DNA of 64,000 bases from Gammaproteobacteria bacterium (GTDB lineage: Bacteria > Pseudomonadota > Gammaproteobacteria > GRL18): positions 186,001-250,000 of the forward strand of contig JADGDG010000006.1 in NCBI GenBank assembly GCA_016744995.1. The letters run 5' to 3'. Made by a program: the position numbers and the translations under genes. The notes under the pieces were generated by a model that was not told where the DNA came from, ran no database searches, and saw only the letters and a list, made by a program, of their open reading frames with translations. Positions 2,104 to 42,832 of the stretch are shown here, one piece after another (the first letter of the stretch is position 1; each line of letters starts with the position of its first letter).

Positions 2104-3960
2104 CTACCCTTTCAGACTAAGACGTTTTAATGTCTCATCAGTCGGAATTCCATCCTCACCCCAGCCCCTCAACTGATAATATTCGGGCATCATTGCTTCA
2201 ACCTGAGAAACAAGTCCCTTGGCAGGCCCAGTTTTAGCAGCTTCTTCTTTCAGGCGCGCGGGTAAAGTATCATCTGCACTGGTGATACCGGCTTTAAGGT
2301 TAAATTCACGTTCCAGATTCCAGATACGCTCACCCACTTCAAGTAAATAATCCACGGTCCACTCACTACCACAGGCACCCTGTATCTGCGGAGCAATGTT
2401 TTCAAGTGACCAGGCAAATGTAGTAAACAAACATAAACCACTTGAGTCAACCGATGCCGTAATATCCTGAAATGCTTTAACCAGTCCCGGTTTGCCAACA
2501 GCTGTAAGCGGATCGGTTTTTTCCGGAATACCCAGAACTTCAGATGCCACGGTATAACCTCTGACGTGACAGGCACCACGATTAGATGTGGCATAGTTCA
2601 AACCAATTCCCTGAATGCCTCGTGGATCATAGGCCGGGAACTCCTGACCTTTAACCGTCATAGATAACTCAGGGCGACCATACTTCTCACATAAGCGTTT
2701 TGATCCCAGAGCCAGATCCTGACCAAAACCTTCACCTGAAGCCACTAATTCAACTGATTGAGTCAATGCTTCTGCAGAGCCGAAATTAAATTCAATACCG
2801 CCGGTATCTTCCAGAGTCAGATCTCCGGCTTCAAACATTTCCATTGCAGCAGCAACTGTCGCGCCAAAAGTAATGGGATCAAAACCGTCTTCATTGCAGA
2901 TAAAATTAACATAAGTCAGGGCATCCAGATCATTAACCCCATTATCAGCACCCAAAGCCCAGGCTGCTTCAAATTCCAAACCACCGGAATTACCCCAGTA
3001 TTTGGCCTTATTTTTAACACTAAAGTGTCCCTGATCAATGGTAGAAATACGCCCACAGGCAATAGTACAGCCAAAACAGGCGGCATTTGTGGTTAGATTT
3101 GTTCGGCCATCAGACTTCCTGGGCTCACTCATAGCTTCACCGGAAATAGCATGCGCACCATCAAACTGTACATCTTGCATATTGTTAGTCGGCAAGGCAC
3201 CAATTTCATTAATAACGTTCATCAGTACCTGAGTACCATAAGCAGGCAAGCCCTGACCAGTCACGGCATTGTCTGCCAGTACAGCTTTACCTTCGTTCAC
3301 GGCTTTCATAAAGCCCGCTGGATCAGCAAGATTGCCAACCCCAAGAGTACCACGGATGGCTACAGCTTTAAGATTTTTTGAGGCCATAACAGTGCCCACA
3401 CCGGAACGCCCTGCTGCACGATGCAGGTCATTGACTATACCAGCATACAAACAGCCGTTTTCAGCCGGCCTGCCCACAGCAGCAATACGCAATGACGGAT
3501 CCTGATGTTTGTTATGTAACCATTCATCAGTACTCCAGACAGATGTCCCCCAGATTTCATCAGCAGGCAGCAATTCAGCCTTATCATTTTCAATATAAAG
3601 ATAAACCGGTTCAGGTGACTTGCCTTCAAATATAATCATATCCCAGCCGGCGCTTTTCATTTCAGCACCTATAAAACCGCCTGAGTTTGAACAAGCCACA
3701 CAATTAGTGAGCGGTCCTTTAGTGACGACTACATAACGCCCCCCTGTAGCAGCCATTGTCCCGGTTAATGGCCCGGTAGCCATAATCATTTTATTTTCAA
3801 TGCTTAAGGGATCACAGGCAGGATCAATTTCTTCAGTTAAATATTTTGTTGCCAGACCACGTGAGCCCAGATACTCCTTTTTCCACTGCTCATTTAATAC
3901 TTCAGTAGTGATATCACCGCTTGTCAGATTAATACGTAATATTTTTCCAGTCCAGGACAT
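2104..3960 (-). CDS. aorB: Tungsten-containing aldehyde:ferredoxin oxidoreductase, catalytic subunit
   Basis: 618 residues, the usual length of AOR family catalytic subunits (about 600-620). It opens with GKILRINLTSG, typical of the family. It contains the 4Fe-4S ligands CFGCTIACG (about 295-303) and the later fourth cysteine in SSGLCLF (about 507). The enzyme interconverts aldehydes and carboxylic acids at a tungsten bis-pterin centre, with electrons leaving by the FeS cluster. A good ribosome site (GGAG) precedes the ATG at 3960, 12 bases after aorA. The upstream tungstate-binding protein gene and the downstream FAD subunit, MoaD and ThiF genes make a tungsten enzyme of the AorABC type much more likely than an archaeal-style monomeric AOR. 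Substrate range cannot be read from the sequence. Confidence 0.93.
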   Translation of the reverse strand: MSWTGKILRINLTSGDITTEVLNEQWKKEYLGSRGLATKYLTEEIDPACDPLSIENKMIMATGPLTGTMAATGGRYVVVTKGPLTNCVACSNSGGFIGAEMKSAGWDMIIFEGKSPEPVYLYIENDKAELLPADEIWGTSVWSTDEWLHNKHQDPSLRIAAVGRPAENGCLYAGIVNDLHRAAGRSGVGTVMASKNLKAVAIRGTLGVGNLADPAGFMKAVNEGKAVLADNAVTGQGLPAYGTQVLMNVINEIGALPTNNMQDVQFDGAHAISGEAMSEPRKSDGRTNLTTNAACFGCTIACGRISTIDQGHFSVKNKAKYWGNSGGLEFEAAWALGADNGVNDLDALTYVNFICNEDGFDPITFGATVAAAMEMFEAGDLTLEDTGGIEFNFGSAEALTQSVELVASGEGFGQDLALGSKRLCEKYGRPELSMTVKGQEFPAYDPRGIQGIGLNYATSNRGACHVRGYTVASEVLGIPEKTDPLTAVGKPGLVKAFQDITASVDSSGLCLFTTFAWSLENIAPQIQGACGSEWTVDYLLEVGERIWNLEREFNLKAGITSADDTLPARLKEEAAKTGPAKGLVSQVEAMMPEYYQLRGWGEDGIPTDETLKRLSLKG

Positions 3961-9722: not shown

Positions 9723-10184
9723 TCAGCATGCACTTGTTATATTTTTTAGCTGCTTATCGTGAGATTTAGAGAGCAATGCTATTGAGGATACTGCACCTAA
9801 TAATGCCAGTGCCATATCAGACTGTGTATCCCACACATAGCCTTGGGTACCTAAAAATGCTTCGGCACCTTCTCCAGTAGCTAAAGCTACCCACCACTCA
9901 ATAATTTCATAGAATGCACTAAAAGCCAGGCTAATTGAAACTATGAGCAAAGCCAGCCAGGCCTTACCATTAACCACTTGCTTTCGTATTAGTATTTCTC
10001 TTGTAATTAAAGCTGGTACAAAACCTTGAAAATAGTGACCAACTTTGTCGTAATTATTTCTCTCTGCACCAAACAGACCATCAAAAAATGGTACTTCCGC
10101 ATATGTATAGTGCCCACCTATCATGAGGATAATACAATGAGCTAAAATGAACAAATATAAAAGAGGTGTTAATCTAAAATTAAT
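9723..10184 (-). pseudogene. 5'-truncated DUF2238 (YjdF-like) membrane protein gene
   Basis: The frame encodes the conserved core of DUF2238 inner-membrane proteins: ILMIGGHYTYAEVPFFD, YDKVGHYFQGFVPALITREIL, FYEIIEWW and TQGYVWDTQSDM. Homology continues in frame upstream of the TTG at 10154 (reading RLTPLLYLFILAH) until a stop at 10185-10187. No start codon and none of the usual N-terminal membrane segments (about 60 residues) remain. The break coincides with the stop codon of the Rhs immunity gene (10180-10182). This looks like a gene decapitated when the Rhs/immunity end was inserted or exchanged. A functional short protein from the TTG cannot be ruled out. Confidence 0.7.
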
Positions 10185-10734
10185 TTACCAATAAAATTGT
10201 CTTACAGTTAGGACACTTTACTAACTCATCTTGGCTTTTGATTTCAACAGCCCATGCTTCACTACATTCAGGACATAAATACCAATTATCTCCTATATCT
10301 TCAGCATAAGACTCAATTCCTGGAAAAGCATATTCCAAATCCATCTTTGTTTTGAATGTTAAAAATTCATCCAAAGCAGTAGGCTCCCTATCCTCTAATT
10401 TAGAATAATAAAAAGCATCTTTTGCCCAAGAATCATATGATGTAATAATAACTTCATCACCATATACATTTAACTTTTCACAAAACCAGTATTTTGAATC
10501 TCTAGAATCTATAACCTTAAATAACTCTGATGGATAACATTTTGGAGTTCCCATAAAATCTTCATCAGCTATATAATAAAAAACAAGTTCATTTAAAATT
10601 TCTTTTGCATAAACCACATAGTCCTTTCCAATAACAACATTCTCAAATTTTCTATTTTTCCTTAATTGCCATCGAGACTGGAGATGTACATCCAACAATA
10701 CTTCACCTGTATCATATAAACATTCAATAATCAT
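10180..10734 (-). CDS. Putative Rhs immunity protein with C-terminal zinc ribbon
   Basis: 184 residues with no signal peptide, acidic overall, starting 18 bases after the rhs stop with an AGGGAT ribosome site. The C-terminal 35 residues hold two CxxC pairs (CPECSEAW and CPNCKTILLVN), a zinc-ribbon knuckle. The N-terminal 145 residues are not recognised. A small acidic cytoplasmic protein encoded immediately downstream of a polymorphic Rhs C-terminus is the standard position of the cognate immunity protein; the assignment rests on this. No interaction can be read from the sequence. Confidence 0.65.
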   Translation of the reverse strand: MIIECLYDTGEVLLDVHLQSRWQLRKNRKFENVVIGKDYVVYAKEILNELVFYYIADEDFMGTPKCYPSELFKVIDSRDSKYWFCEKLNVYGDEVIITSYDSWAKDAFYYSKLEDREPTALDEFLTFKTKMDLEYAFPGIESYAEDIGDNWYLCPECSEAWAVEIKSQDELVKCPNCKTILLVN

Positions 10735-10752
10735 TATGAATATCCCTACAAA

Positions 10753-13700
10753 TTAATTCTTAGTTTTAAATTTCCAATTTTCTGGCGGAATACCATCACT
10801 TCGAGGTTCTTTATTGACTTTAGTATTCGCACGACTATGACCTTCCTTATATTTATTAACAGCATTTCCTGTTTTCGTGTCATAGCGTTTAAATTTGTAC
10901 TCTACATTTTGCCCTGTATCTAAATTTTCATGCCAATGGATTTCTGTTATAGAACCATCTGCATTTTTCCTCTCGGTTCCTTTTTTCACCCATCTACCTT
11001 CACCATATACATTTTCAAGTCTAGGTTGATCCTTAAGTTTCTCTAGCTTAACTTCACCTGTACGTGATTTACCTATAGAACGTGCTTCTTTCATTGATAA
11101 CTGCTCTTTCAAGTCACGTGGCGTTCTATCATAACTATGATCTTGACCTTTTCTTTTATCTGAAATCTTTTTATTAAGTTCTTGTTTATAATCATCCTTA
11201 GATTTATCAAAATCAGTCTTTTCTTTTGATTTCTTTTTACCAGTTAATTTTTCTTTTGCATTATCATAAAAACGCTTCAGTGGTATCTTTTTAGAACCTT
11301 TTTCAATAATAATGCCTGAGGCACTAATAATAGCCCCATCCTCAAGCTGTTCCAGAATATCATCAAAGCCCGTTTGACCTTGTAAAACATCATCAGCTTT
11401 CTTCCACATTTTTTCAACACTTTGCTGACGTTTTGCAAATTGCTGTTGCTGTTCCGAACAAACTATATCGCCATTACAGGATTTGATAGAGTTTTCACTT
11501 TCAGTATTTAGAGGTACTTGATTTTTTCTTTGCTGAATCCGTTTCTTTTCTTCTTCCCTGTATTTTTCAAAAATACCATCATAATTTGTTGGTGTATCTT
11601 TGTGACCCTGACGAACCTTATCACTGTTTGCTTTCTGCTCATCAGTAATTTGAGGACTTTGTTTTTTGTCAGAAAAAACTTTCTTCCCATTTTCATCTGT
11701 CGATATATAAACCTTATGACCATCAGGATCAATATATTTAGTGGGGTTACTATAGGTATAGAGGTAACGATTAAGACTTGGTGGCAAGTCTTGTTGCCCA
11801 AGGTAGGTATCTTCCGTTAGGAACCGTCCACTGTCTGGATCATAAAACCGAGCCTTCATATAAACAAGGTTGGTCTCATCATCCATTTCATGCCCGGTAA
11901 ATCCAAAGTCATTCTGGGTATCGGCCTCAGTCTTAGAGCGATAGTTCCCAAAGGCATCATATTGATAAGATGCCTTAATCTGAGAGTCATAACCCAGCAG
12001 ATCAACCACGCTCCCCAGTCCATCATGCAGATAAAACTGGCTGATTTGGTTTTTATCCGTCAATGCAATTAAATGATACCCGCCATAGGTGTATCGATTC
12101 TGCGTGACGCCATTTTCATCGGATTGTAAAAGAACAGATTGATCGTCATAACTATAAAGTAAAACTTCACTATTGTCATCTTCTTTACTGATCCGCAGTC
12201 CCTGATAATCATAGCCATAACGCCCCAGAGTCACCAGTCCGTCTTTAACCTGAGATAACTGGTTTCTCACATCATAGCGATAAAATGTCGTCTCCCCGGC
12301 TTTTGTCTTACTGGTCTGATTACCATTGGGATCATGGGTGTAACTGATATTCTGGCTATTATCCAGATTATCGATGATACCCGTCAGTTTATTGCGATTG
12401 TCATTGCTGTACGTTTTATCAATAATTATGATGTCATTGGTGTTTTTAGTCTGCTCGCTGGTACGGTTGTAATTGCCATCATAGGCATAGGTGGTGGTTT
12501 TATCGGGGTAGATGACTGTTTCTAAGCGATCCAGCTGATCATATTCATAACGGGTGTCTTCATCCAGGCTGGCACGATGTTCACTCTGTTTGATTCGATT
12601 GCCGTTTTTATCGTAGTCATATAAAAACTCAGAAACAATGACACTATTGAGGCGATTGTTTCTTGTTTTCAGTCGACCGGCGGCATCGTAGACATTGCTC
12701 ACCTGACTGTGATTGGGGTAATCAATGGTTTTAACCCGATCACTGCGATCGTACTCATAGCTTGTGCTGCCCTGATTCTGGGTGGTGATGAAGCTGATCC
12801 GGTTGCGTTTATCATACTCATAACGGGTCTGTTTGCCATCGGGATCGGTCATGGAGAGACGATTGCCGTTGAAATCATAGCGATAAGCAATGGTTTTGCC
12901 ATGGCTATTGGTGACTTGTTCCAGACGATCAAAATGGTCATAGCGTTTCAGGGTTGTCCGTGTACCACTCACACCGCTATAGTTTTCATGCATGGCGATG
13001 GGGTTTGAGTTGGCATCGTAGTCGGTTGCTATCTGCTGCAGATCGTCTCCGGTGGGATCAACAGGTAATGGGTAGTGGCTGAGTTTCAGTCGATCCAGTT
13101 CATCGTAGTCATGGGTATTCACTTTGCCTGAAGGAGCGGTACGCTGGATCACATTTGAGTTTTCATCAAAAACACTGAGGCTTTTTAACAGACCACCGGG
13201 ATAGATGTAATCGGTCTGGCGATTGAGTGCATCAAATTCGAAGGACCAGCGTTCGCCATTGGCATCCACTGTGGCTGTTTGATTGTCATTGGCATCATAC
13301 TCATAAAGGCTGCTGCGTCCCTCGAGTGAACCCGCTGTCTGCAGTGCATCATCAATCTGAATCAGCCGATCGGCCCCGTCATAATGGTATTCTGTTCGCT
13401 GACCTTCGGGTAAGATAACGGCACGGCGGTTATTGTTTTCATCGTATTCAAAACGGGTGACTTCATCCTCATTACGAGTAGTGCTGTCCAGACGACTGCG
13501 CTGATCATAATGCGATAGTGTGATCCGTCCCTCACCATCCTGATGGCTGATCGGATTGCCCATGAGATCATAGCTGTAGTGTTCGTTAACATTGACTTCA
13601 CCCTGTTTCAGGAGCAATTGGTTGGCGGGATCATAACTGTAGACGGTATTGTTATGATTAGCGTCCTGGCTGCTTTTAAGGTTGCCCACGGGATCATACT

Positions 13701-16700
13701 CATTTCTCAGCAAGGTGATCCCGTCTTTTTCTGTGCTCAGCAGACGATTTTCTTTATCATAGCTATAGAGGGTGATCTGATCGCGGGGATCGGTTTCTGA
13801 ACGTTGATTGCCGATGCGATCGTAGCTGTAGCGCTGTTCATAGTTAAACGGGGCACTGGTGGTGACTTTTTCTAACTGGTTCAGTGCATCATATTGGTAA
13901 TTTGTGTGATGTCCCCGACGGTTGGTTACCTGTGTTTGATTGCCCACGTCATCATAGACCGTGGTTTCGCTATAGTTAAACGGGGCGGGATCGGTGATTT
14001 TGATCAGCTGGTTAAGGTCATTGTACTGGTATTTTTGTGTATTCCCCAGTGCATCTGTGTGACTGATAACATTATCCAGTACGTCATATTCACTGTGGCT
14101 GTTTCGATTTTCCGGCAGACGGCTTTCAATGCGTTGCTTAAGTACGTTGTAGCGAAATTCACTGCGCTGACCCCGACCATCGGTGCTGAATCGCAGATTG
14201 CTATTGGCATCGTACTGGCGATTGCTCAGTAGATCGGAGACGGCATCATACTGGTGGGTGAGTCGGTTTAAGGCATCGTATTCACTGTGAATTGCATTAG
14301 CATTGGCCTGAGTTTCTCTGATACGGTTGCCTGCGGCATCGTAATCGTATTCGGTGACCGAGTTGACCGGATCAGTTTTTTTGATCAGTCGATTTAATGC
14401 ATCGTAGTCAAAAAAGCTGCTGTGGTTGCGTGAATCGGTGCTTTGGATCAGGTTATTCGAGGGATCATACAACAAACGGCTTTCATAGCCCAACGCATCT
14501 GTTTTGATGATGAGCCGATTGTCCTGATCATAGTGATTGTGACGGATCTGTTGGTCTGACTCATCGTCAGTGACCCAGGCAATGGTTTTGATGACATTGC
14601 CACTGGCATCATATTCATATTCACTGATACGTCCCAGTGGCTGAGTTTTTTTCAGCAGCTGGTTTAAGTCATCGTATTGGTAATGAGTTTCACGCAACAG
14701 GGGATCGATGGTTTTGGTTTTATTTTCGCCATCGTAGTGTGTCTGGTAGACATGATCTTTACCCGAAACCAGTATCTGGCTGATTTGACGACCGAGGGGA
14801 TCGTATTCATAGCGGCTTTCCCGATTGGCAAAGTTGTCACTGGTACCCTGAATCTGGCTCCGGGTTTTATTAGCCAGGCCATCGTATTGATAGATAAAGT
14901 GGTTTCCCAACGGATCGGTTTGTTTCACCAGACGATTGGCGGCGTCGTATTGATAGAGCCACACTATGCCCGGATCATTGTTATAGTCGGTTTCTTTGAT
15001 TTTATTGCCTGAATGATCGTACGCCAGGGTTTTTATGTGATCATCGGGATCCTGAATTTGGATCACCCGACCGGCATCATCGTAGGTCCATTGAGTCTTA
15101 AACTCTCTGGCATCGGTTTCACTCAGTTTGAGACCATTTTTATCATAGCTGAAGTGAGTTTTTTGACCCAGAGGATTGTTTAACTGGGTCAAGCGATCAA
15201 GGCGATCATAGCGGTATCGGGTTTTATGACCACGAGGATCGATCCGGGATGTTTTCAATCCCCGCTCATTCCAGCTCAGTTGTTCACGATGACCTTGTGC
15301 ACTGATCTGTTCACTCAGATAACCCTGTGCTGTGTAGTTAAAACGGGTGATATTGCCGCGGCGGTCACGAGTCTGGCGACGATCACCATTATTATCATAG
15401 GTATGGTGAATCGTTTGCCCTTTAGCATCGGTGACTGAGAGCAGGTTGCCTTTGGTATCATAGGCATAAGAGGTCATATGGCCATTTCGGTCAGTTCGGG
15501 TCTTAATGCGATTACTGATGGGATGCTCAAAGTCGGCGGGTGGATACCAGGTATTGCTCAGGGTGAAAACAGGGCCATTGCTCTGGCCGGTTAGCATTTC
15601 ACGGGTGATGTTACCATAAGTGTCATAGTCCCACTGAGTCAAATGCCCATTGGCATCCTGACGGCTGGCCATCAGGATGTCATTGTTTTTCCAGGTGCTC
15701 AGAGTTGCACTGCCGGTGGCATCGGCAATACCAGGGGCTGCCTGGGCGATGGTGATTTTTTGTGGAGCACCATAGCGGTTTAAGGTATAAGTGGTCTTAT
15801 TATTGAGCGGATCACTGACGGTAACTTCAGTGGTGGGAGTATTTTGTGTGCTGAGCCACTGCTTGTCTCTGAGGATATGAGTCAGCGCGTGCTCACCGTT
15901 GCCGGTGGGTTCTTTTATTTCATCGTATTGATAAAGAAAACCAAGCACCGGATTATTTTGCCCATTGGTAAAAGCATAATTTTCACGAGAGCTATGGTAT
16001 TGGGTGATATGACCCTCGGGATCCTGATAGCTTTTGAGCAGGTAATGACTGAAGCGATCCCCGCCTTGCTCGTAGGTGTAGTGTTCTGATTTGAGTGCAT
16101 TGCCGTGCTCATCCTCTTCTCGGGTCGCGGCGATCAGGTTACCCAGTGTGTCGTAATCAAAATTAATCTGCACGCCATCTACAGAGGTCAATGTTTTAAG
16201 CACAGAAACGGTTTTTTCATGATAGGCAAACTGTTTGACTTCATAATCAAAAATCAGTTCCCGGCCATCATCAGCAATCACATTATTGAGTAATAATTGT
16301 TCTCTGGAGGGTGAATAAGCCAGACGAATACGATTATCATTGGTGTCCTGAATGTACTCCAGACGCCAGAATTTTTGTTTACCAATTTCAGTGTATTCAA
16401 AGTGATATCGATTGCCGTTACGGGCAAAGAAGTCATAACTATTTTGGGTCTCATTTTTTATCAGTATACTATGATAGCCTTTGCCAGATTTGAGAATGCT
16501 CAGGTTATCACCGGGGGCAGCCAGTGTGGGATAATCACTGGTTGCCACGCGCTCATTAAGAAAAAAGGTACCACCACTGCCATCACCACTACTGACAATA
16601 ACTTCACCACATTCATTTTCACTGATGCGGGCATTATAGTTATGACTCCAGCCCACGCCCATAACACCGGGAAGACTATTGTGACCACTATTGTAGCTGC

Positions 16701-19700
16701 GGGTAAAGTTCAACCCGGTCCCACGAGTGGACAGAGTCACATCTGAGGCACTGAAATTCAACCCACCACTGAACAAATCAATACCTTTCACTACGGCATG
16801 ACCTAAGGGCATATGATCGGTCACTGTCTGTCGGGAGGTAGCCTTGCCTTCATGGCTCTCCTCATAGGTGACCAGTTCAGATTCAGCTTTAATTGCCAGA
16901 TTATACTGCCCATCCGGAACATCATCGGGAGTGATGGACAGCTGGTGACTGCCTTTTTCATAGTGAGTATTATTCAGCAGAGTAAACCAGTAAGCATCAC
17001 TTTTTTCATTACCCTGATCATCTAAGGGTTTAAAGGTCAGGGTGATTTTGGCCGCCTGGCTGATTTCAAAATCAAAGTTAGATTGCATTTCACAGGATTT
17101 GGCATTATTAAAGTCCACCTGACGACTCACCGTGATCTGTCTATCCAGTCTGGTAAAAATAACCTGTTGTATATCTATATCATAGGGTTCAGATTCAATT
17201 TCAACCTTAGAGCCGCGATTCAGAACCAGTTTTGCAGTATAGTGCTTTTCAATATCAAATGCAGTGCCTCTGGGGATGGTGAATAAACCTTGTCTTTTAC
17301 ATAATCTGAACTGGGTTTCAATGGGTGAAGAACACTGTTCTGGTTTAATATTCTGCTCACCAGTTGGTGAATAGGCCTGCACTTCGATACCATTTTCAAG
17401 GATCAGTACCTGGCTACTCAGGGGGTTGTAAAGGCCTGACTGGAATTCAAAGGTAAGTTGGGTATTAAAACTTGTTTTGCCATTACCATCGAGTTGAAAA
17501 GCCTGAGAATCTCCCTGTGGGTTTTCAATGAGTTTAAAGCCAAAAGGATTATCATTATCAGGGACATAGTTTGGATCAAAAGAAAATCGGCTTTTTCCAT
17601 GGCCGGGAATCTGTTCTTTAATGCCGACATCTAGTGAATAATAACTCCCAACAATACTCTCGATTTCCAAGGGCGGATCAATGAGAACACCATCAGTGTC
17701 AAGAATCTCTGGAAATTTGGCCTTGATTAATATCTCATGAAAATTAGGCTCATTACTATCAGCTGTGAGATAAAAGACACTGGGTTTCTTGCCAAAAGGC
17801 CCTCGGATTAATCCTCCATTACCTGATATCCCTAAGGTTTTAATCTCAGCAGAAAGATTAACAGGTGTTGTTTCTTCAGTTGTTTCATAAAGACCATCAT
17901 TGCCATGTGCTTCATTGATAAAAAAGCGAACTTTAATGGGCTCATCCACAGTTTCACCCAGGCGCGCAGCTCTCAGAATCTCCCCATCAGTATTTAACGG
18001 TGTTTCAGATCTCATTGAGACTGTAATGCCAGAAAAAACAGAACATTCTCTGGTTTGGTACAAGAGATCTTTTGTCTCGGAGAGGGCGGACATACTCACA
18101 CGATAATGATAGGCAATCATATTGCCCATAATGACACCTATTGAAGCGACACCAGCACTATTTGTCTTAAGTGTTTGTGTCCGATGCCCACCACATTGCC
18201 CCAGGATACGACGTGATGAATTAGGGCATTGTTCAAACTGAAAAATTGTCGCATTAATTAACTTACTGGCATCAGATTGCTCCTTGCAGACTGATATTTC
18301 ATTTAATTTTGCTGCTTCAACCTGATAGCGAACTGTTTCATTAGCTACTGGATTCGCAAAGCGATCAATCACCTGAGTGATCACCGTATCAGTCCAGTGG
18401 TTAGGCGTTGCAGGTGCTCTGTGAGGGAGATGGTATCCCAGCGTTTTGGAATGAATTACCTCAGCCTTGTCCGCTTTATCTGGAAAAGCAAGTAATACAA
18501 AGGGATAGGAAATACCTTGAGTTTTTCCAGGATTAAAGTCTATTTGGGCGTCTACCAGTACATAACGAGCACGAGAAGGATATTGATCGCCATTCTTTTT
18601 CTTCAGGTAAGTGGGCTGAATTTGGGTGGATTTTGGTAATTTAACTGACACCTGTGCAATACCCAGGGCATTAGTGAAGACCTTGATTCGTCCTGAGGTG
18701 GATGTCCTGTTACTGGAGAGATCGGATAATTTAACATCTGCTTCTGAGGTAAACCACACCGGGGCCTGTTTAATGGGACGACCACTAAGATCTTTTACTT
18801 TAACGCCGATACCATAAGGCAAGGTGGTATTCACCACCCCTCGCTGACCATCTGAACCACGGAGCTTAAGCACCCGGATCCCATCCAGATAGTTTAAACC
18901 CGCAGGTACACTATAGGCATACTGCAGGGCATTCATAATAAAATTATTCTGCCATTGTTTTCGGACTGTCGAGCCCCCCGCCAGCTCACCCCTGATGAAA
19001 TACCCTATACTGCCAGTCAAGGGATCAACCACTTTCCAGACTGAACCCTGCCAGTCATCTAATTGACTTTGCTCACCGGGTATCGTCACGTGATAGTCTT
19101 GCTGCAGCCAATTGGCAATGATCGTTATAACCGCTTCAGGATGGTTTAATGAGGCTTTTAAACCCGCAAAATTATCCGCTGTTAATTCATAGAGGATTTG
19201 TCCTTGTTCATAGGCCTGAATCAATCCTTTATCGGCAGATATAGCTGGTTCATTAAAGAGTTCAGTAAATACCGTGCTTTCATATTGGGAGCCTTCAAAA
19301 GCAGCCAGTTGGAGCCATTGCTTTTCTACCCGATGCGCCTGTTCACTGTCCAGCTTTCGGGCAATGGGTGTGGCACGTTTATAAGCTGCATCAAGGGTCA
19401 CTCCCTGCCAGACAAGTTGCTGAGCCTGACCCATCACGGTATCAACACGAAGAGCATTGTTGACAATATGTATGGATGGTGAGGGTTCTGCCACAAGGAC
19501 ACTCAATAAATCAGAGAGTTCCTGTTCACTCTGTCGCCACCGCTGATTATAAGTCAGGGCAACTCGATTCAGTAAAGCCGCCGCTTCAAACTCCGTTTCG
19601 GCTGTATTATCACCACTTTGTTTGATATCATTAGATGGTTCTGCTTCAAACAGACGTTGTTCCTGAGTGCTGCGCGGCAGTGCCTGACCATGATTCAGAC

Positions 19701-21741
19701 TGAGCACATGGTAACTGCCTGCCAGCAGAGTTTGCGCCAGACTCGCTTCTCGTTCAGCATCCAGTAAAGTCAATTCAATGCGATGCATATTACCCAGAGC
19801 AACCATTCCTGCACCAGTTTTAATCAATCGCCCATTAATTTTTAGCTGAACTCTGAGTTGAATAAGATAGGCAGGCACGGCATCCAGACCGCCAAACTGG
19901 TTGACCAGGTTTTGATCACTCACTGTTGCAGGTAAATAGGATAAGGTCAGACGTTCATTAATCAATTGATGAGTGGCAATAGTGTGCTCTAATATCGGCT
20001 CACTTAAAGGATCATTCTGCTTTCGGATAATAATTTTTAGCCGCTGCTGTGCCCGTTTATTCAGTTCAGGGCCTTCAAAGGTGACCACTTTCACTGTAAA
20101 GGGCAAGGTATTGGGCAACAGACCTGTTTGTTGAGTGATGATCGTAGCTGAGGACCACCAATCATCCAGTTCACCTTGCCCCTCTGTGGTCAGATAGTTT
20201 TGTAAACGGTCTTTAATATCAGCCATTAAACTTTGTTGATTGGGTCGGTATTGCTGCTGATGGCTTTGGTACCATTCATTTACATCGATGTTAGCCAGTT
20301 GCAGCAGATCAGTTTTTTCTGGATATTGATATGTCTTAAAGGCCGGAGCAAGCGGGATCCAGATAGCTCCTTCCCGATTCACCGTGGTGCCACGATAATG
20401 ACGATAAGGGACATAAGCGGCCAGCCAGGTATGTTCCATTTCCAGGGCAGCAACCTGCCCCCCTCTGATCAATGTTTTATAGGCTACGCCTGAACTTTTC
20501 AGGTAGTTTAAGACGGCACTGGTTGAGCTCAGGTTGAGGTTATCTTTGAGTACCTTGATATCTTGTTCAATAACACCCTGTACAAAACGGGTCGCCACAC
20601 CACTGGCACGCAGCAAAGCACTGAGCAGTGCTGCTTGATCAACCGAATTGCCTTGCTTTTGGCGCAATGTGATGTGTGCCCCTTTAATGCTGCCATGATA
20701 CCATTGGGTGTGAATTTGATTCTGGACAAACTGATATATTTTGACGTAGTCATAATCCAGCAGTTTAGCCTGATTAATAATTTCCTGTGTGAGCCCCACG
20801 GTGTCTGAGGCCTGAAATTCTTTCAGGGTCGGGGCGGGTCGTACGTCAAGTTGATATACCGGGGTCAGCTCGGGGGTATACTGAGGGGCTCGGATGAGTG
20901 ATTGCTCTGCTTGATACGGCAAGACCTGTTGACCCAGCGTGATCAGTGTTTTATTACTTGCTTTGGCAGCCCCATCAACCTTCTGAGCTTGTTGATAGAG
21001 GCGAATTATCTGAGCCAGCTGTTGTTGATAAGCCACTTGCTCTCGTATTGTCTTTTGCCCTTCAGAACTCATGGCCAGGTAATTTGAAAAAATTAACTTA
21101 AAGGCATCATTAAGCCCTTTTGTGTGTTGATAATAGTCTGCCCGAGCCTGATTTAAGCGTGTGTAGAATATTGCTTCAACGCCCCGCTCTTTAAGCTGCC
21201 TCTCAGTGTCTTTAAAACGTTCAAGATAGAGCAATTCATCGGCTTGAAATTGCTGCCAGGCATTAATCAGACGAGTGATGTGGGTGTTTTTTATGGGCTC
21301 TTTAGTCTGTTCAACTAATTGGATAAAGCGCATCAGACTTTGCTGAACGTATTGAGCCTGTCTGGCTTTTAGTGGCGGTGATCCTTTAGCTTTTTCAGTC
21401 TGTTGTGCCTGATATTGACGCATTAACTCCTGAACATCCTGTCCCCGTTGAAAACCGGACAAAATTGATTGTGCCAACATTTCTGAATTCTGAATTCTGT
21501 CTGCCTCCGCATTCGCGGCATTGACAACTTCAGAAAGAGTCATATTCATGAACAGACACAATATCAGCACTGAGGTCAGTTTTTGTGTCAGAGAAATAAA
21601 ATCAAAATCATACACAGTGGACTTTTTTAAGCTGAGCAATGTTAAGCTGAATAATGTTAAGCTGAATAATGTTAAGCTGAACAATGGGCTTATTTCTAAT
21701 AAAGCCGCACGGATAAATGTACTGGTTTTTTTTATTATCAT
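10753..21741 (-). CDS. Giant exported Rhs/YD-repeat protein with C-terminal toxin-like domain
   Basis: 3,662 residues. Order: N-terminal export signal with a hydrophobic core (about 45-70, ending NAANA); helical region; transglutaminase-like domain (about 300-470) whose GN-S-VDQAALL has Ser where catalytic Cys is expected, with His at HTWLAAY retained; Ig-like domains (one at about 990-1100); DUF6531-like entry (GLNFTRSYNSGHNSLPG, about 1650); dozens of YD repeats (about 1750-3280); Rhs core ending in NPTKYIDPDGH (about 3340). A variable C-terminus of about 320 residues follows, basic, ending in an unrecognised domain with YGEGRW, IHWHENLDTGQ and VEYKFKR. Rhs shells encapsulate C-terminal toxins; here no PAAR, VgrG or type VI signal is seen, and export is by signal peptide. 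It lies 88 bases after the giant 6,171-aa gene on the same strand. Confidence 0.92.
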   Translation of the reverse strand: MIIKKTSTFIRAALLEISPLFSLTLFSLTLFSLTLLSLKKSTVYDFDFISLTQKLTSVLILCLFMNMTLSEVVNAANAEADRIQNSEMLAQSILSGFQRGQDVQELMRQYQAQQTEKAKGSPPLKARQAQYVQQSLMRFIQLVEQTKEPIKNTHITRLINAWQQFQADELLYLERFKDTERQLKERGVEAIFYTRLNQARADYYQHTKGLNDAFKLIFSNYLAMSSEGQKTIREQVAYQQQLAQIIRLYQQAQKVDGAAKASNKTLITLGQQVLPYQAEQSLIRAPQYTPELTPVYQLDVRPAPTLKEFQASDTVGLTQEIINQAKLLDYDYVKIYQFVQNQIHTQWYHGSIKGAHITLRQKQGNSVDQAALLSALLRASGVATRFVQGVIEQDIKVLKDNLNLSSTSAVLNYLKSSGVAYKTLIRGGQVAALEMEHTWLAAYVPYRHYRGTTVNREGAIWIPLAPAFKTYQYPEKTDLLQLANIDVNEWYQSHQQQYRPNQQSLMADIKDRLQNYLTTEGQGELDDWWSSATIITQQTGLLPNTLPFTVKVVTFEGPELNKRAQQRLKIIIRKQNDPLSEPILEHTIATHQLINERLTLSYLPATVSDQNLVNQFGGLDAVPAYLIQLRVQLKINGRLIKTGAGMVALGNMHRIELTLLDAEREASLAQTLLAGSYHVLSLNHGQALPRSTQEQRLFEAEPSNDIKQSGDNTAETEFEAAALLNRVALTYNQRWRQSEQELSDLLSVLVAEPSPSIHIVNNALRVDTVMGQAQQLVWQGVTLDAAYKRATPIARKLDSEQAHRVEKQWLQLAAFEGSQYESTVFTELFNEPAISADKGLIQAYEQGQILYELTADNFAGLKASLNHPEAVITIIANWLQQDYHVTIPGEQSQLDDWQGSVWKVVDPLTGSIGYFIRGELAGGSTVRKQWQNNFIMNALQYAYSVPAGLNYLDGIRVLKLRGSDGQRGVVNTTLPYGIGVKVKDLSGRPIKQAPVWFTSEADVKLSDLSSNRTSTSGRIKVFTNALGIAQVSVKLPKSTQIQPTYLKKKNGDQYPSRARYVLVDAQIDFNPGKTQGISYPFVLLAFPDKADKAEVIHSKTLGYHLPHRAPATPNHWTDTVITQVIDRFANPVANETVRYQVEAAKLNEISVCKEQSDASKLINATIFQFEQCPNSSRRILGQCGGHRTQTLKTNSAGVASIGVIMGNMIAYHYRVSMSALSETKDLLYQTRECSVFSGITVSMRSETPLNTDGEILRAARLGETVDEPIKVRFFINEAHGNDGLYETTEETTPVNLSAEIKTLGISGNGGLIRGPFGKKPSVFYLTADSNEPNFHEILIKAKFPEILDTDGVLIDPPLEIESIVGSYYSLDVGIKEQIPGHGKSRFSFDPNYVPDNDNPFGFKLIENPQGDSQAFQLDGNGKTSFNTQLTFEFQSGLYNPLSSQVLILENGIEVQAYSPTGEQNIKPEQCSSPIETQFRLCKRQGLFTIPRGTAFDIEKHYTAKLVLNRGSKVEIESEPYDIDIQQVIFTRLDRQITVSRQVDFNNAKSCEMQSNFDFEISQAAKITLTFKPLDDQGNEKSDAYWFTLLNNTHYEKGSHQLSITPDDVPDGQYNLAIKAESELVTYEESHEGKATSRQTVTDHMPLGHAVVKGIDLFSGGLNFSASDVTLSTRGTGLNFTRSYNSGHNSLPGVMGVGWSHNYNARISENECGEVIVSSGDGSGGTFFLNERVATSDYPTLAAPGDNLSILKSGKGYHSILIKNETQNSYDFFARNGNRYHFEYTEIGKQKFWRLEYIQDTNDNRIRLAYSPSREQLLLNNVIADDGRELIFDYEVKQFAYHEKTVSVLKTLTSVDGVQINFDYDTLGNLIAATREEDEHGNALKSEHYTYEQGGDRFSHYLLKSYQDPEGHITQYHSSRENYAFTNGQNNPVLGFLYQYDEIKEPTGNGEHALTHILRDKQWLSTQNTPTTEVTVSDPLNNKTTYTLNRYGAPQKITIAQAAPGIADATGSATLSTWKNNDILMASRQDANGHLTQWDYDTYGNITREMLTGQSNGPVFTLSNTWYPPADFEHPISNRIKTRTDRNGHMTSYAYDTKGNLLSVTDAKGQTIHHTYDNNGDRRQTRDRRGNITRFNYTAQGYLSEQISAQGHREQLSWNERGLKTSRIDPRGHKTRYRYDRLDRLTQLNNPLGQKTHFSYDKNGLKLSETDAREFKTQWTYDDAGRVIQIQDPDDHIKTLAYDHSGNKIKETDYNNDPGIVWLYQYDAANRLVKQTDPLGNHFIYQYDGLANKTRSQIQGTSDNFANRESRYEYDPLGRQISQILVSGKDHVYQTHYDGENKTKTIDPLLRETHYQYDDLNQLLKKTQPLGRISEYEYDASGNVIKTIAWVTDDESDQQIRHNHYDQDNRLIIKTDALGYESRLLYDPSNNLIQSTDSRNHSSFFDYDALNRLIKKTDPVNSVTEYDYDAAGNRIRETQANANAIHSEYDALNRLTHQYDAVSDLLSNRQYDANSNLRFSTDGRGQRSEFRYNVLKQRIESRLPENRNSHSEYDVLDNVISHTDALGNTQKYQYNDLNQLIKITDPAPFNYSETTVYDDVGNQTQVTNRRGHHTNYQYDALNQLEKVTTSAPFNYEQRYSYDRIGNQRSETDPRDQITLYSYDKENRLLSTEKDGITLLRNEYDPVGNLKSSQDANHNNTVYSYDPANQLLLKQGEVNVNEHYSYDLMGNPISHQDGEGRITLSHYDQRSRLDSTTRNEDEVTRFEYDENNNRRAVILPEGQRTEYHYDGADRLIQIDDALQTAGSLEGRSSLYEYDANDNQTATVDANGERWSFEFDALNRQTDYIYPGGLLKSLSVFDENSNVIQRTAPSGKVNTHDYDELDRLKLSHYPLPVDPTGDDLQQIATDYDANSNPIAMHENYSGVSGTRTTLKRYDHFDRLEQVTNSHGKTIAYRYDFNGNRLSMTDPDGKQTRYEYDKRNRISFITTQNQGSTSYEYDRSDRVKTIDYPNHSQVSNVYDAAGRLKTRNNRLNSVIVSEFLYDYDKNGNRIKQSEHRASLDEDTRYEYDQLDRLETVIYPDKTTTYAYDGNYNRTSEQTKNTNDIIIIDKTYSNDNRNKLTGIIDNLDNSQNISYTHDPNGNQTSKTKAGETTFYRYDVRNQLSQVKDGLVTLGRYGYDYQGLRISKEDDNSEVLLYSYDDQSVLLQSDENGVTQNRYTYGGYHLIALTDKNQISQFYLHDGLGSVVDLLGYDSQIKASYQYDAFGNYRSKTEADTQNDFGFTGHEMDDETNLVYMKARFYDPDSGRFLTEDTYLGQQDLPPSLNRYLYTYSNPTKYIDPDGHKVYISTDENGKKVFSDKKQSPQITDEQKANSDKVRQGHKDTPTNYDGIFEKYREEEKKRIQQRKNQVPLNTESENSIKSCNGDIVCSEQQQQFAKRQQSVEKMWKKADDVLQGQTGFDDILEQLEDGAIISASGIIIEKGSKKIPLKRFYDNAKEKLTGKKKSKEKTDFDKSKDDYKQELNKKISDKRKGQDHSYDRTPRDLKEQLSMKEARSIGKSRTGEVKLEKLKDQPRLENVYGEGRWVKKGTERKNADGSITEIHWHENLDTGQNVEYKFKRYDTKTGNAVNKYKEGHSRANTKVNKEPRSDGIPPENWKFKTKN
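21626..21685. repeat. Four-copy 15-bp tandem repeat in the rhs 5' end
   Basis: Units 21626-21640, 21641-21655, 21656-21670 and 21671-21685 are near-identical (GTTAAGCTGAATAAT and single-base variants; the two middle units are identical). On the coding strand each adds the five residues LFSLT, ahead of the hydrophobic export signal. Copy changes keep the frame but alter the length of the N-terminal hydrophobic segment. Confidence 0.9.
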
Positions 21742-21829: not shown

Positions 21830-24800
21830 TTAAAGCGCTGACCATTTCGCCTGATATACAACCAAAAGATAGCCCAGCTGAGTAACAACAAGCTGTTGTT
21901 TATCCAACTCACGCACCGCTAACATGGCCCACTTTATCTGCTCCATAGCGTATTCCAGACCAGCTTTTGTGGTATGGTCGCAAGCAATGGCATTATCCAG
22001 ATGGTACAAAGCCCAGTTCAATAAGTAATAATTAAAGAAGTTAGTTTCTAATTTGAGTAATTCAGTTTCAACATTAATGATCAAACTTGTCTCAGACTGT
22101 GTTGTACTGACTGATAACTGATCACTTGCAAGGCTGCGGGTAGTAAGCTCGGTTTTCTCAAACAATTGGGCATCAATTGAATAATCACCGGCTTGTAAAG
22201 GCAGTTTGATGAGAGAATCAAAATCATGAGTGTCAGTTTCAAGGGTCAGTTCCCATAACACATCCTGAAGATTTTGAATTACACCATCCCATGCAAAAAC
22301 AGTCGACATTAAAGGATCGATGCTTTGTTCCAGGCTGATATCTATTGGTGGAGTCATTTCAGAAGCGGTCCAGCGGATCCGGGCCAGAGTGCCGGGTAAC
22401 AAGAGTTGATCGCTATTGCCACTATAAGCTAATACATTCGATAACAAATCAATAGATTGCTGCATGTCCTCAAGCTTATCCACTTCAAAATTGAATGTGA
22501 CTACTTCACCCTGGCCAAATTTATTCAGAATCAATGCCGGATAATAATGATGCCCACGTTTAGGATAGAGTTTTCCAACTGCAATGCCTTGAGTCATAAT
22601 CGTACGCACTGCATGACCTGACGCTTGATAAACTGCAGCATCAGTTGCTGGACTCTGGGTTAATTCAACTTGAGAAATTGAATGGATAACTCCTCTAGAA
22701 TATGCACCAGTAATATCTTTCCAGTCACCGCTGAAATCATCCAGTGAACGCAGCCAAACCAAACCGGCACCTGCGGCAATATAAGCTCTGATTTCATACT
22801 GAGTTGACGCTGTCATACAGACAACATTATTACCATGATTCGGTCCCCAGACAGAACAGGGCCCAAAGAAAAATGGGCGTTGCAGATAGTCAGTCAACAT
22901 AATGGATTTGTAACGACCACTTCTTAAATGATTGATAAAATCAAGTTCGTTATAAACAATTTTATAATCACGTTGATTGTTTTGCATCACCGCTTCAATT
23001 AAATCACGTAATTTCTCTTTGCCATATTGTTGATGAGTGGGGCCCAAATGCGCCCATCGGTCAAACAATCTCATATGCTTTAAAAACGGATTACGGCATC
23101 GACGTATATGATGCTCTGGCGGCAACCAGATGAGCACACTGCTATGCATGGGAGAATTGATCACACCAGTTAATTCTGCTGAAACAGACGTGACCATAAC
23201 AGAGAGTGAAATCACCACACTTGAGTTGCCTGCCCGATCTAAGGCATAAAGTTGAAAAGTATTTTCACCCTCTTCAAAAGCCGCTTGAGAAAAGACAAAT
23301 TCACCCTGAGAATCTGCCAATACACTATAGGAAGCCCCTCCTAACTGAAGGTGAACAATTGAGTTTGGTTCACTGCTGCCTCGAATATCATTATGAAGCT
23401 GAGTCAACGTCGCATCATTGACTGGACTAATGACAACAGGGGCATTGGGCGGTAATTTATCAATATCAAAAGACACTGATTTAACAGTATGATTACCAGC
23501 TTTATCCAGGACATCCACAACGAGTTCATAATGATAATTATCACTGATCACAGTGCCACTGGTATAATCAACCCCATTGAGCTGAATACTTTGTGATGCA
23601 ATATTGACTTCGGTAATAGTGATGACTGGAGTCACATCAATATTGTAGAGACCACCTTCCTGAACCCCATCAATCTGAATAAGCGATGAAATTTTATCGA
23701 TATAGAAACCAACATGAAGATTGGATTCGTTACCGGCTTTATCAATTGCGGTCACAGATAAATGGTATTTATCATCCTCAGTGACAGGTAAGCCATCGTA
23801 TTCAGTACCATTTAAAACAATCAGGCTTTCCAACAGATTGGTATCTGCAATCGTGATCACCGGTAAGACATCAATATTATAATATTGATTATGCGCAACA
23901 TCATTTATCTCAATTTGAGGTGCTGTATTATCAACGGTAAAGTGAATGACTTCACTCATTGCAGTATTACCCCAGGTATCCCAGGTCTTTGCCTGCAATT
24001 GATGAATGCCTTCTGACAGGGTATCGAAACTGGAGAGATAATAGTTGTTCCCTGCCTGAGCCGATGAAATTTTAATCCAGTTGTCGTCATCCAGTTTTAT
24101 CTGGGTTTCAACTACCTGAGAATGAGCATCACTGGCATAGATTTTTATATCAGATGCCCCTGAAAAATAAGCATCATTAGCCGGTTCCAATATGGATAAT
24201 TGTGGGGCTAAGCGATCATTAACGACAAAACTGACTGTATCCAGCTCAATAAGGTTTGTCTCACTTTGATTGACAGGTACTTCAATAACCATTTGAACTT
24301 TATATTTCTCCAGCAGTAAATCGTTTGTACTAAAGGAGTATTCGCCCTGTACATTCTCACCGATAGCTGCGGACACATTAATTTGATGTTGCTGGACAAT
24401 CTGGTTGGTTTTCGCATTCATCAGCTCCAATCTCAGGGGGATATTAACAATGTCAAGAGTACCCGTATTAGTGATTGTATAAGTCAGTTTCACATCCATA
24501 CCAATAGCAGGCGCATCATCATCAATAGATAAATCACCTGATAACTGCACCCGACTGGAGTCAATATCAAAGACAGCCGATGATTCAGATAAAACCTCAG
24601 TCTCATCAGCACTAATGAATTTTATCATGACATGGTAAATATCATTTTTATTCAGAGCCGTGTTCCAGTTAAATGAAATAGCAGCTTGTTCCTCAGGCTG
24701 CATTTCTGAAACAATTTGTACTTTTTCTGCCAACAAATTAAATGCATCATCAAATACCTGTAATTTCAGTTGCGCATTTTTATAGATGATATTGCCCTGA

Positions 24801-27800
24801 TTGTATTGAATGGCTCCTGTTATAGTCACGTTTTCATTGGCATCATAACGGCTCTTATCTGTTTTTATAGTGCTTGAAAAATCATAAAATTGACCAATAC
24901 TAAATTCAGAGATGGCTTCATTGATCGGTTGATTACTTTGATCATAAAGGAGAACATGAATTCTATAACCATCAGCAAAGGTATTGCCCGTATTCCAGCG
25001 GCTGCTTATAGTTTGTGTTTTTCCAAATGCCAGCGCATTGATCGGTGTGGCGCCAAGACTCTGCACTAAATAACCAGAGAGATCTTCAACACGTATGACC
25101 ACTTTACCATCAAACAATGGTGTATGACTCACCACTTGAAGTTCAACAGATACCTCTTCACTCGTATTGTATTGCAATTTATCAGTATTTAATATCAGTT
25201 CAGGCATACCTTGCTGACCCACGTTTACTGTCATAAATACGGTGTTATTAACTTTGCTCAATTCTTTTTGCTTAAAGTAAGGGTCAACTTCTACCACAAT
25301 GGTGTAGTCGTCAATGGTGTCTGGTGTTTTCCAGTCGATACTGATAACCTGCTTTTGATTAATGGAAATACTACCAAGCAGTTGCTCAGTGAGGATTTGG
25401 CTTTCCCCCGAAGTATTAATGGCAATGATCTTAAGAAGCACCGGACTTGAATGTGCGAGCCCAATATTATGAACCACCGCACCTAAACGGACGGTTTCAC
25501 CCGCTGAAGGAAATGCCGGTAAAACAACAATATCTTGTCGGCTGATTTTGAGATCGGGTAAATCATCCAGATTTCGAGTGGCAACAGCTGGCATTGAAGG
25601 CCCACCCTGATTTCCAAAAATATCCGTTGCAACCGTGCTAAAAATATTATCACCAAGTTGTAAATCAATATCTCTGAATTCAAAATAACCGGGTAGAGTT
25701 ACCTTAATTCTTAAATCATTACGAAGTGTGATAAGGATCTGACCATTATTAAGCCAATCTAACGCTTCAACATGAGAGTTATTATATAGCTCATTAATAT
25801 CCCAGAGCGGTATCACTTTATTACTGGCTAAAATAAGTGAATAAATAATTCCATTGTCAGAAAAAATTATAGATCGGCCCTCTGGTGAGAGTTGAGCATA
25901 ATTAATCTGTCCCTCATAGTTATTATTAATTGAGGACAAAACATCTGTATAACTATTATCCGACAAGTCATAACGCCACAATTTTGATGTATTAGTTTCT
26001 CTTGATGAATAAAAAAAGACTGACTGATCATCAGTTGACCAAAAGGCATACATATCTTTGCGATAATTGTCTATGGACAGTTTTTCATCAATCAATAATA
26101 CGCTGCCATTATTCAGATTAACAATTTCCAATGAACCTGAATTACTATTACCTAATAAGACTTTTTGACCATCATCAGAGACTTTAACGGCATAAGAAGA
26201 ATAACCATACTGTGAATTTTGAAAAGCTATCACAAGAGAAATATCACCTGAATCCAGATTTTTACTCCAAAGCCCAACTTGTCCTGCTTGAGCATTATTG
26301 GCGATAACTAAATAGTCTGAATCATTAATGCGGACAAAAGCAGTAATTTCTAATGGCGAAAAATCAAGTGCTTTATCGGACTTAGTTATCAGGTCGTATT
26401 GATGAATGGAATCATCATTCCAGTTATTATAATAGACCATGCTCTTTTCAAGGTGTAAAAACTCACCATTTGACAATATATGTGTTTCTTCATTATCCCA
26501 TTGATAAAAGGAAAGTGGGTATTCATTCACATACGAATAGAGACCAGACTCTGAGATAAAATGAAAAGCTGAAGAGCCATCATAATCATCCACCAAATTA
26601 AAACTGCTGCTTGAGCGCGTGCGTAAGGGTTCTGAGTCATTGACATTCAGAATAATCTCAAGATCCGGTTCTAATGCCATCCCGGAAACAACGGGGAAAT
26701 TCTCTTCCTGCGTCACAATAACCACGCCTGATTTGATGGGATCGATCAACAAACCAGGCTCTGGAGCACGAGTATCAACCGGAATACCTTCCACAACATT
26801 TGATGAGATGCTGCGATTATTTAAGGCGTCGAGAATAGTGACACGATAAAAATAAGATATGCCATTCTCTAAGCCGGTATCATCCAGATAGCTTTTTTCA
26901 GAAAGTTCAGATGCCTTGAGCACCACAATACTCTGATAGCCATTATTCTGGCTTAACGAGCGTTGAATTTCATAAGCATAAACATCATCTTCAGTATAGC
27001 TGTTATTATTTATCTGAACGTTCCAATTGAGTAATAATGATTGACCAGCCGGCACAGTCTGAAGCGTCAAATCAATAGGCTGAAAAGGTAGGCTAATGTC
27101 AATCATGGCCGATATGGTATTTGAATCAATGCTCTCAAGGCCCACATTATCAACGACTCTAATAGTATAATTATAGACCCCATTTTTTATATCTGAGTCT
27201 GTATAACTTAGTGTATTCACGTCATTAATCAGGCTTAATAATTCACCATCACGATAGAGATTATAGGACACTGCATCATCAGAAACACTTTTTGACCAGC
27301 TCAGTTGAACGAAATTGTCCTGTGGGTTTATTGCAGCAGCACTGAGTATCACAGGCTCAGGAGCGGTCACATCTCCAGCAGGTACAGTGACTTTATCCGA
27401 AGGTTCACTGGCAAGAGCATATTCATTCAGAGCAATGATCTGATAATGATAGACACCATCAATCACAGTATCATTAAAAGAATTGATTGTAATGACTGGT
27501 TGCTCATAAACTTCAATATCATTTATAGTGATATTGATATAACCACCATAGGAATCATTTTGTCTGGGTTTATCAATTACAATCCGAATATCACTGGTGG
27601 CATAAAGCGTATCAAAAACAACCAAATTTTCACTTTCAGTATTGTTTTCAATTGTTTTTATAGTCAACCACTCAGTATCCGTCCAGACATCAATATAATA
27701 ACCATAAGGTGCAATTTCAGGTCCCCAGCTAAGCTGGAGCTTCGAGATAAATTTCTTTACAGGTCTCTGTGGATTGCCGGATAAACTGAGACTCAACCAC

Positions 27801-42342: not shown

Positions 42343-42832
42343 TATAATGAGTCCCATCCAGAGCCTGTTTCTCAGATTGAGAGTGAATATCATAGACATC
42401 ACTTCCACTCCATAAAAGGCTGTCCATATCATCTTGATAGCCTCTTATCTTCCAATGTTCTTCCAGAGATAAATCCTCAGTTGCAAAAGGATCTTCGGGG
42501 AGCCGTCTGAGATAACGTTTCTTTCCTCCCTTGATACCATTTTTTTCAACACCTTCAACCAGGATCATTAGAGAAACAGGATAACCATCCTCACTGGCTG
42601 CATCATCAAGGCGTGAAATCTTGCCAAACTTCCAGTCCTGATGAAACTCATCAATAGCATTTCTAACACCTCTTAAAACCGATCTCAACTCATATTCTTT
42701 ATTTCGGGTGATCACCAGATGTGAATAAGGCAAGGCAATGGATGCAAGAATAGATAAGATGGTCAGTGTGACCAACATTTCAATAAAGGTAAATCCTAGC
42801 CTTTTATTATTTAATTTTAATTTCAGAGACAT
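42332..42832 (-). CDS. Pseudopilin, GspG-like
   Basis: 166 residues. The leader MSLKLKLNNKRLG is cleaved before FTFIEMLVTLTILSILASI, with Glu at +5. The globular part has a GspG-like RRLPEDPFATEDLSLEEHW block, then HSQSEKQALDGTHYNEW. It starts inside the end of the secretin gene (26-base overlap) and is the first of four consecutive pseudopilins. Together with its neighbour it probably forms minor or alternative shaft subunits. Confidence 0.85.
   Translation of the reverse strand: MSLKLKLNNKRLGFTFIEMLVTLTILSILASIALPYSHLVITRNKEYELRSVLRGVRNAIDEFHQDWKFGKISRLDDAASEDGYPVSLMILVEGVEKNGIKGGKKRYLRRLPEDPFATEDLSLEEHWKIRGYQDDMDSLLWSGSDVYDIHSQSEKQALDGTHYNEW

Follow-up and report, generated by a model that had tools for sequence, protein, structure and literature searches.

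The locus raises the question of what the basic end of a very large Rhs protein does and whether the small acidic protein encoded directly behind it is its partner. Within the window, by which we mean the whole 64,000-nucleotide stretch analysed, the Rhs open reading frame lies at 10753-21741 on the minus strand and encodes 3662 aa. Its delivery part (11716..21741, minus strand) has, by Pfam, a transglutaminase-like domain (PF01841), DUF6531 (PF20148), RHS repeats (PF05593; RHS_repeat match at E 5e-130), and a core ending in DPDGH (residues 3338-3342, window 11716-11730). We propose that the last ~100 residues of this protein are a toxin domain and that the next gene encodes the cognate immunity protein. 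We think it likely that the whole is an exchangeable Rhs cassette, with a toxin tail of an unnamed family that would act as an RNase, its own immunity gene, and a stand-alone counterpart elsewhere.

The basic features of the two genes are as the initial annotation described them. The tail after DPDGH, given there as about 320 residues and strongly basic, is 320 residues long, with a pI of 9.43 and a charge of about +16, and the three motifs assigned to its end domain are found at residues 3579-3584 (YGEGRW), 3601-3611 (IHWHENLDTGQ), and 3613-3619 (VEYKFKR). The next gene, here called P0002 (10180-10734, minus strand), begins 18 nt after the Rhs stop and does encode an acidic CxxC/CxxC protein, of 184 aa and pI 4.46, with CPEC at 154-157 and CPNC at 174-177. 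Between the Rhs core and the toxin is a linker of low GC and without family (11131..11715, minus strand); a subthreshold match there to DUF4124 was at chance level and was rejected as an identity.

Neither protein is named by any library searched. The Rhs tail matched no family in Pfam, NCBIfam, PADLOC, or the PDB sequences, in keeping with the initial view that the toxin belonged to no nameable family, and matches to cullin and DrmA were at chance level and were discarded as identities. P0002 gave only zinc-ribbon matches below the cutoffs in Pfam, NCBIfam, and PADLOC and none among the PDB sequences. In the same three libraries, there was no match above the cutoffs for the window tail, P0002, the tested stand-alone genes, or the L131 pair discussed below, and profiles of the enlarged toxin and immunity families found nothing convincing in the PDB. 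Judged by sequence, then, the toxin and immunity families appear to be named in none of the catalogues searched, where the literature covered was open-licence papers.

That leaves the question of whether the two genes form a real pair. P0002 alone as the query found L130 and L131 (BLAST E 5e-8 and 1e-6), and a three-member profile of P0002, L130, and L131 found L134, L135, and L136. At four of these loci (L131, L134, L135, and L136), the immunity gene lies directly behind an ORF that ends in a toxin tail of the same family as the Rhs tail. A toxin HMM built without those tails matched them, in five tests, at E 5e-7 (L131), 3e-14 (L134), 3.5e-4 (L135), and 3.3e-4 (L136). L134 is the same place as an earlier toxin match, L037, and was thus reached by two independent searches. 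The initial annotation had made the pairing depend on homologous pairs in other Rhs loci, and L135 is one, being itself an Rhs. L136, on another contig of the window's own genome (G000:C35, about 1043121-1043471), is a second pair of the same two families. Since searches with the immunity protein only led to four further loci with toxin tails, this is a real and recurring toxin-immunity pair. It is therefore very probable that the Rhs tail and P0002 make up such a pair, with toxicity and immunity predicted, and the pairing originally suggested for them holds.

The immunity genes also occur apart from this toxin. L130 is an orphan in an array of immunity genes that follows another cassette, and L132 is apparently one too; at L132 (Burkholderia multivorans NZ_CP143551.1), the P0002-type gene at 2450-2824 has no evident toxin of the same family adjoining it. 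L136 is seemingly an orphan cassette, in which the stretch before the toxin, SLGYITDAVTSPEYIFTAITSTMGASAYLGRS, has a copy in the different toxin that precedes it.

Base composition also sets the two genes apart from the rest of the locus. At a GC content of 0.34, the tail lies below the Rhs core (0.46), and P0002 is lower still (0.30); the lowest value for any 375-bp segment in the remainder of the Rhs gene is at least 0.389. The low GC of the tail and its neighbor looks usual for a swapped C-terminal cassette. Together with the pairing of the same two families behind other delivery proteins, it marks the two genes as an exchangeable toxin-immunity cassette. An orthologous Rhs chassis with another tail, sought in 18 genus and family relatives, gave one match, partial and 30% identical.

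How far does the toxin family extend? The tail used in searches comprised residues 3538-3662 (125 aa; 10753..11130, minus strand). Searched against a sample of its class, it gave five relatives, all weak, and a subsequent profile gave more. These relatives are partly tails of other large toxins and partly free-standing genes of ~77 aa. Among the tails, one ends a Pre-toxin-TG protein (L006) and another a MafB protein (L036; PF06255, E 2e-52); L004, L038, and L039 are others. Two of the tails are followed by a protein of a different type from P0002 (L004:1713-2069 and L036:1716-2039). That of L004 matches PDB 8tzm (E 9e-7), an entry named "Type I site-specific deoxyribonuclease", and is immunity-like by its context. 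An HMM made from 80 stand-alone relatives, with the window excluded, matches the Rhs tail at E 7e-9 (6,574 ORFs searched), and one made from the six other immunity proteins, with P0002 excluded, matches residues 27-125 of P0002 at E 1e-9. The relationship thus goes beyond chance for both proteins. In the window's genus, the Rhs tail itself was the sole match, and with either the window tail or P0002 as the query, no relatives came up in phages, plasmids, or viral contigs. In BFVD, a 244-aa Siphoviridae protein fragment (A0A8S5M8W8) matches the model of the stand-alone toxin (Foldseek E 5e-4, 34% identity); going by the model, it would be a phage-encoded member of the toxin family.

The family is not confined to Rhs proteins but also occurs as a module of two genes that stands alone. 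When one genome per species was scanned with a profile from a three-row alignment (the full 14-row alignment being too divergent), at least 101 relatives of the toxin came up, of which 80 were kept. They are spread over more than ten phyla. By record titles, the carriers include Planctomycetes, Acidobacteria, Chloroflexi, Nitrospirae, Verrucomicrobia, Alpha- and Gammaproteobacteria, and Myxococcales, as well as Desulfuromonadales, Thermodesulfobacteria, Bipolaricaulota, Rokubacteria, Ignavibacteria, Hydrogenedentes, and Elusimicrobia; Bradyrhizobium, Methylobacter, Candidatus Thiosymbion (L125), and Methylovulum (L102) are among the hosts. In all 80 loci, the ~77-aa toxin gene has an acidic partner of ~75 aa directly downstream, identified by its motif in 79 loci and by eye in L096. 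The median gap is ~2 nt, the median pI is 10.4 for the first product and 5.0 for the second, and the partner consensus includes DESGEDYLYP. The tested members belong to no family in Pfam, NCBIfam, or PADLOC. A stand-alone query also found one such pair on a Thiodictyon plasmid, where both genes carry the annotation "hypothetical" and lie close to a transposase and a DUF433/PIN-like pair. In L003 and L015, the stand-alone pair is followed by further small gene pairs that, by eye, resemble toxin-antitoxin modules of the HigBA/RelE type.

Whether the partner of the stand-alone toxin is related to P0002 is a more difficult matter. With P0002 as the BLAST query, there was no match among the stand-alone partners, and an HMM of those partners does not find P0002. 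Aligned as profiles with hhalign, the P0002 family and the stand-alone partners gave E 5.7e-4 and 30% probability, with a score of 26.1 against a maximum of 21.5 in 300 permuted controls; when P0002 was left out, the score was 19.2, not above the controls (maximum 20.6). The two partner types are weakly linked at the profile level. L019 bears on the same point. Here, a free-standing gene downstream of a secF-like gene encodes a toxin of the stand-alone type (E 2.7e-13; listed GTG start at 1516); in our manual alignments, this toxin begins with M where the DNA frame reads R. The gene after it encodes a P0002-type protein (E 6e-12; BLAST to P0002 2e-6 and to L131 4e-9), which retains the LYP..LF motif found in the stand-alone partners (E 8e-4; BLAST to L052 3e-4). 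Taken with the hhalign comparison and its permuted controls, L019 makes a common ancestry of the two partner types likely, if not proven. One can go further and envision a single lineage that takes in both an unnamed toxin-antitoxin family, present in more than ten phyla, and a polymorphic toxin tail together with its immunity protein, toxin and inhibitor moving together between intracellular addiction modules and delivered weapons; we regard this as an evenly balanced proposition.

Small adjacent genes for a basic and an acidic product, as expected of a type II module, are present in 80 of 80 loci, and it is quite likely that the stand-alone pair is a type II toxin-antitoxin-like module, its toxicity being predicted. 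It could instead be an ordinary cellular pair, the delivered form being the only toxic one. Both genes are highly conserved, and most of the loci come from metagenome-assembled genomes, as that reading would have it. However, the pair is scattered across many phyla, the window's genus has no match besides the Rhs tail, the basic and acidic genes are tightly paired, the plasmid neighbors are mobile and toxin-antitoxin-like, and ancestry is shared with the toxin-immunity pair via L019. We therefore consider an ordinary cellular function unlikely.

What would the toxin domain do to its target? The AlphaFold model of the window tail, built with 62 sequences, has an ordered core at residues 3568-3635 (10837..11040, minus strand; pLDDT ~85-92 over most of it) made of one helix and a four-stranded meander. 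The model of the stand-alone protein (mean pLDDT 92) has the order strand, helix, three strands. Lys3586 (10984..10986, minus strand) and His3602 (10936..10938, minus strand) are invariant in the family, in 62 of 62 sequences and in both the delivered and stand-alone forms. Lys3616 (10894..10896, minus strand), in the last core strand but one, is also conserved in 62 of 62; it is invariant in two of three alignments and alignment-dependent in the remaining one. The initial annotation had suggested that a His/Glu/Lys-rich motif could be a nuclease site. His and Lys are indeed kept across the family, but the Glu, invariant in the stand-alone set, is replaced in several delivered relatives.

Our best guess is that the toxin is an RNase that needs no metal and is similar to those of the BECR type. 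BECR RNases are described as having a helical segment and, after it, a meander of four strands, and as being common to polymorphic toxins and toxin-antitoxin systems (PMC3482391). The predicted helix and four-stranded meander, the conserved Lys and His, the basic character, and the use in both delivered and stand-alone forms would all suit that type. Unlike them, the window toxin is smaller, has no detectable sequence or structure match, and lacks a conserved Ser/Thr in strand 4. An active-site Ser/Thr in that strand is common in the BECR fold but not universal (PMC3482391); in our alignments, no invariant Ser/Thr was seen in the last strand, whereas Lys and His are invariant. Foldseek and VIA, run on both toxin models, returned no significant PDB match and no BECR structure. 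We imagine that the small basic domain of helix and four strands would cut RNA, most likely tRNA or mRNA, without metal and by means of the conserved Lys and His. The balance leans modestly toward an RNase.

The same residues could be read as the site of a DNase or other metal-dependent nuclease, with the pair otherwise as proposed. DNases are frequent among Rhs tails, His and Lys do not vary in the family, and in the stand-alone set the Glu does not vary either. The replacement of the Glu in several delivered relatives speaks against this, as does a domain of ~70 residues of helix and sheet with no HNH-like or PD-(D/E)XK match. Because the motif Glu varies among the tails, a metal-independent RNase is favored, and we find a metal-dependent enzyme doubtful. 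Slightly less probable still is that the domain is not an enzyme but binds and blocks a nucleic acid or protein, in which case the stand-alone pair would be regulatory or a toxin-antitoxin system without cleavage. The domain is small and very basic, with many conserved Gly, Trp, Arg, and Lys residues, and the fold searches matched it to no enzyme, all of which would suit such a role; yet the Lys/His pair is kept across tails that are otherwise very divergent, as expected of an active site.

In the producing cell, the acidic 184-aa protein would bind the basic tail of the putative RNase and block it. The conserved immunity core lies at about residues 27-125 (10360..10656, minus strand; also recovered by BLAST). 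The initial annotation spoke of a zinc-ribbon immunity protein; its role as the conserved partner of the toxin is borne out, but the ribbon is no feature of the family. The extension with CPEC and CPNC (10204..10275, minus strand), matched by ribbon models below threshold, is absent from the six other members, so that the ribbon (residues 152-180) is seen in P0002 only, one of seven aligned proteins. It is an add-on outside the conserved core. That P0002 is instead an unrelated zinc-ribbon regulator that follows the Rhs gene by chance, as its CxxC/CxxC ribbon and weak FmdB- and regulator-like matches might suggest, is very improbable, given that the core and not the ribbon is conserved beside the toxin in L131, L134, L135, L136, and L019.

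For the toxin to act on others, the Rhs protein would be exported and its released tail would enter a neighboring cell. A type II-secretion-like set lies upstream on the same strand (minus), with a secretin (42807-45053), a GspE-like protein with MshEN (47582-49276), and a GspF-like protein (49273-50469), and is a possible export route. That strand also encodes, upstream of the Rhs gene, a protein of 6171 aa (21830-40345, minus strand) that contains Ig-like, CARDB, and alpha-alpha-toroid domains. The gene after the immunity gene (9723-10154, minus strand) encodes a DUF2238 membrane protein (E 3e-49) and is apparently unrelated to the cassette.

The arrangement is like that of Rhs/CDI polymorphic toxins, with a large delivery protein, a conserved core, a variable C-terminal toxin, an immunity gene directly downstream, and a low-GC cassette (PMC3482391, PMC3150448). 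It differs in that the toxin and immunity families are in no searched library and the toxin is also found as a stand-alone pair. That pair resembles type II toxin-antitoxin modules in which, as in HigBA, the toxin gene precedes the antitoxin gene, having two tiny, tightly packed genes, basic then acidic, scattered over phyla, except that neither protein is in a named family. Among Neisseria-type MafB/MafI systems (PF06255; PMC4287609, PMC9970974), one MafB, that of L036, ends in a tail of the window family, but its downstream neighbor is of a different, unrelated-looking type. Characterized MafB tails are EndoU or RNase A-fold enzymes (PMC4287609, PMC9970974). MafB2, whose toxin is RNase A-like (PMC9970974), showed no sign of a relation and was rejected as a fold model for the window toxin. 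In Salmonella, main and orphan Rhs toxin-immunity pairs can work intracellularly like toxin-antitoxin modules (PMC7043789). The Salmonella orphan adjoins its Rhs gene (PMC7043789), whereas the stand-alone module of the window family is independent of Rhs and widespread.

Our analysis describes both halves of a predicted toxin-immunity pair absent from the catalogues searched, with candidate catalytic residues for the toxin. It also exposes a stand-alone two-gene module, annotated only as hypothetical on the Thiodictyon plasmid, whose hosts range from Bradyrhizobium and Methylobacter through to members of the Acidobacteria and Chloroflexi. Should the delivered and stand-alone forms act alike, a common ancestor of a toxin-antitoxin inhibitor and the immunity protein of a delivered toxin would become directly testable.
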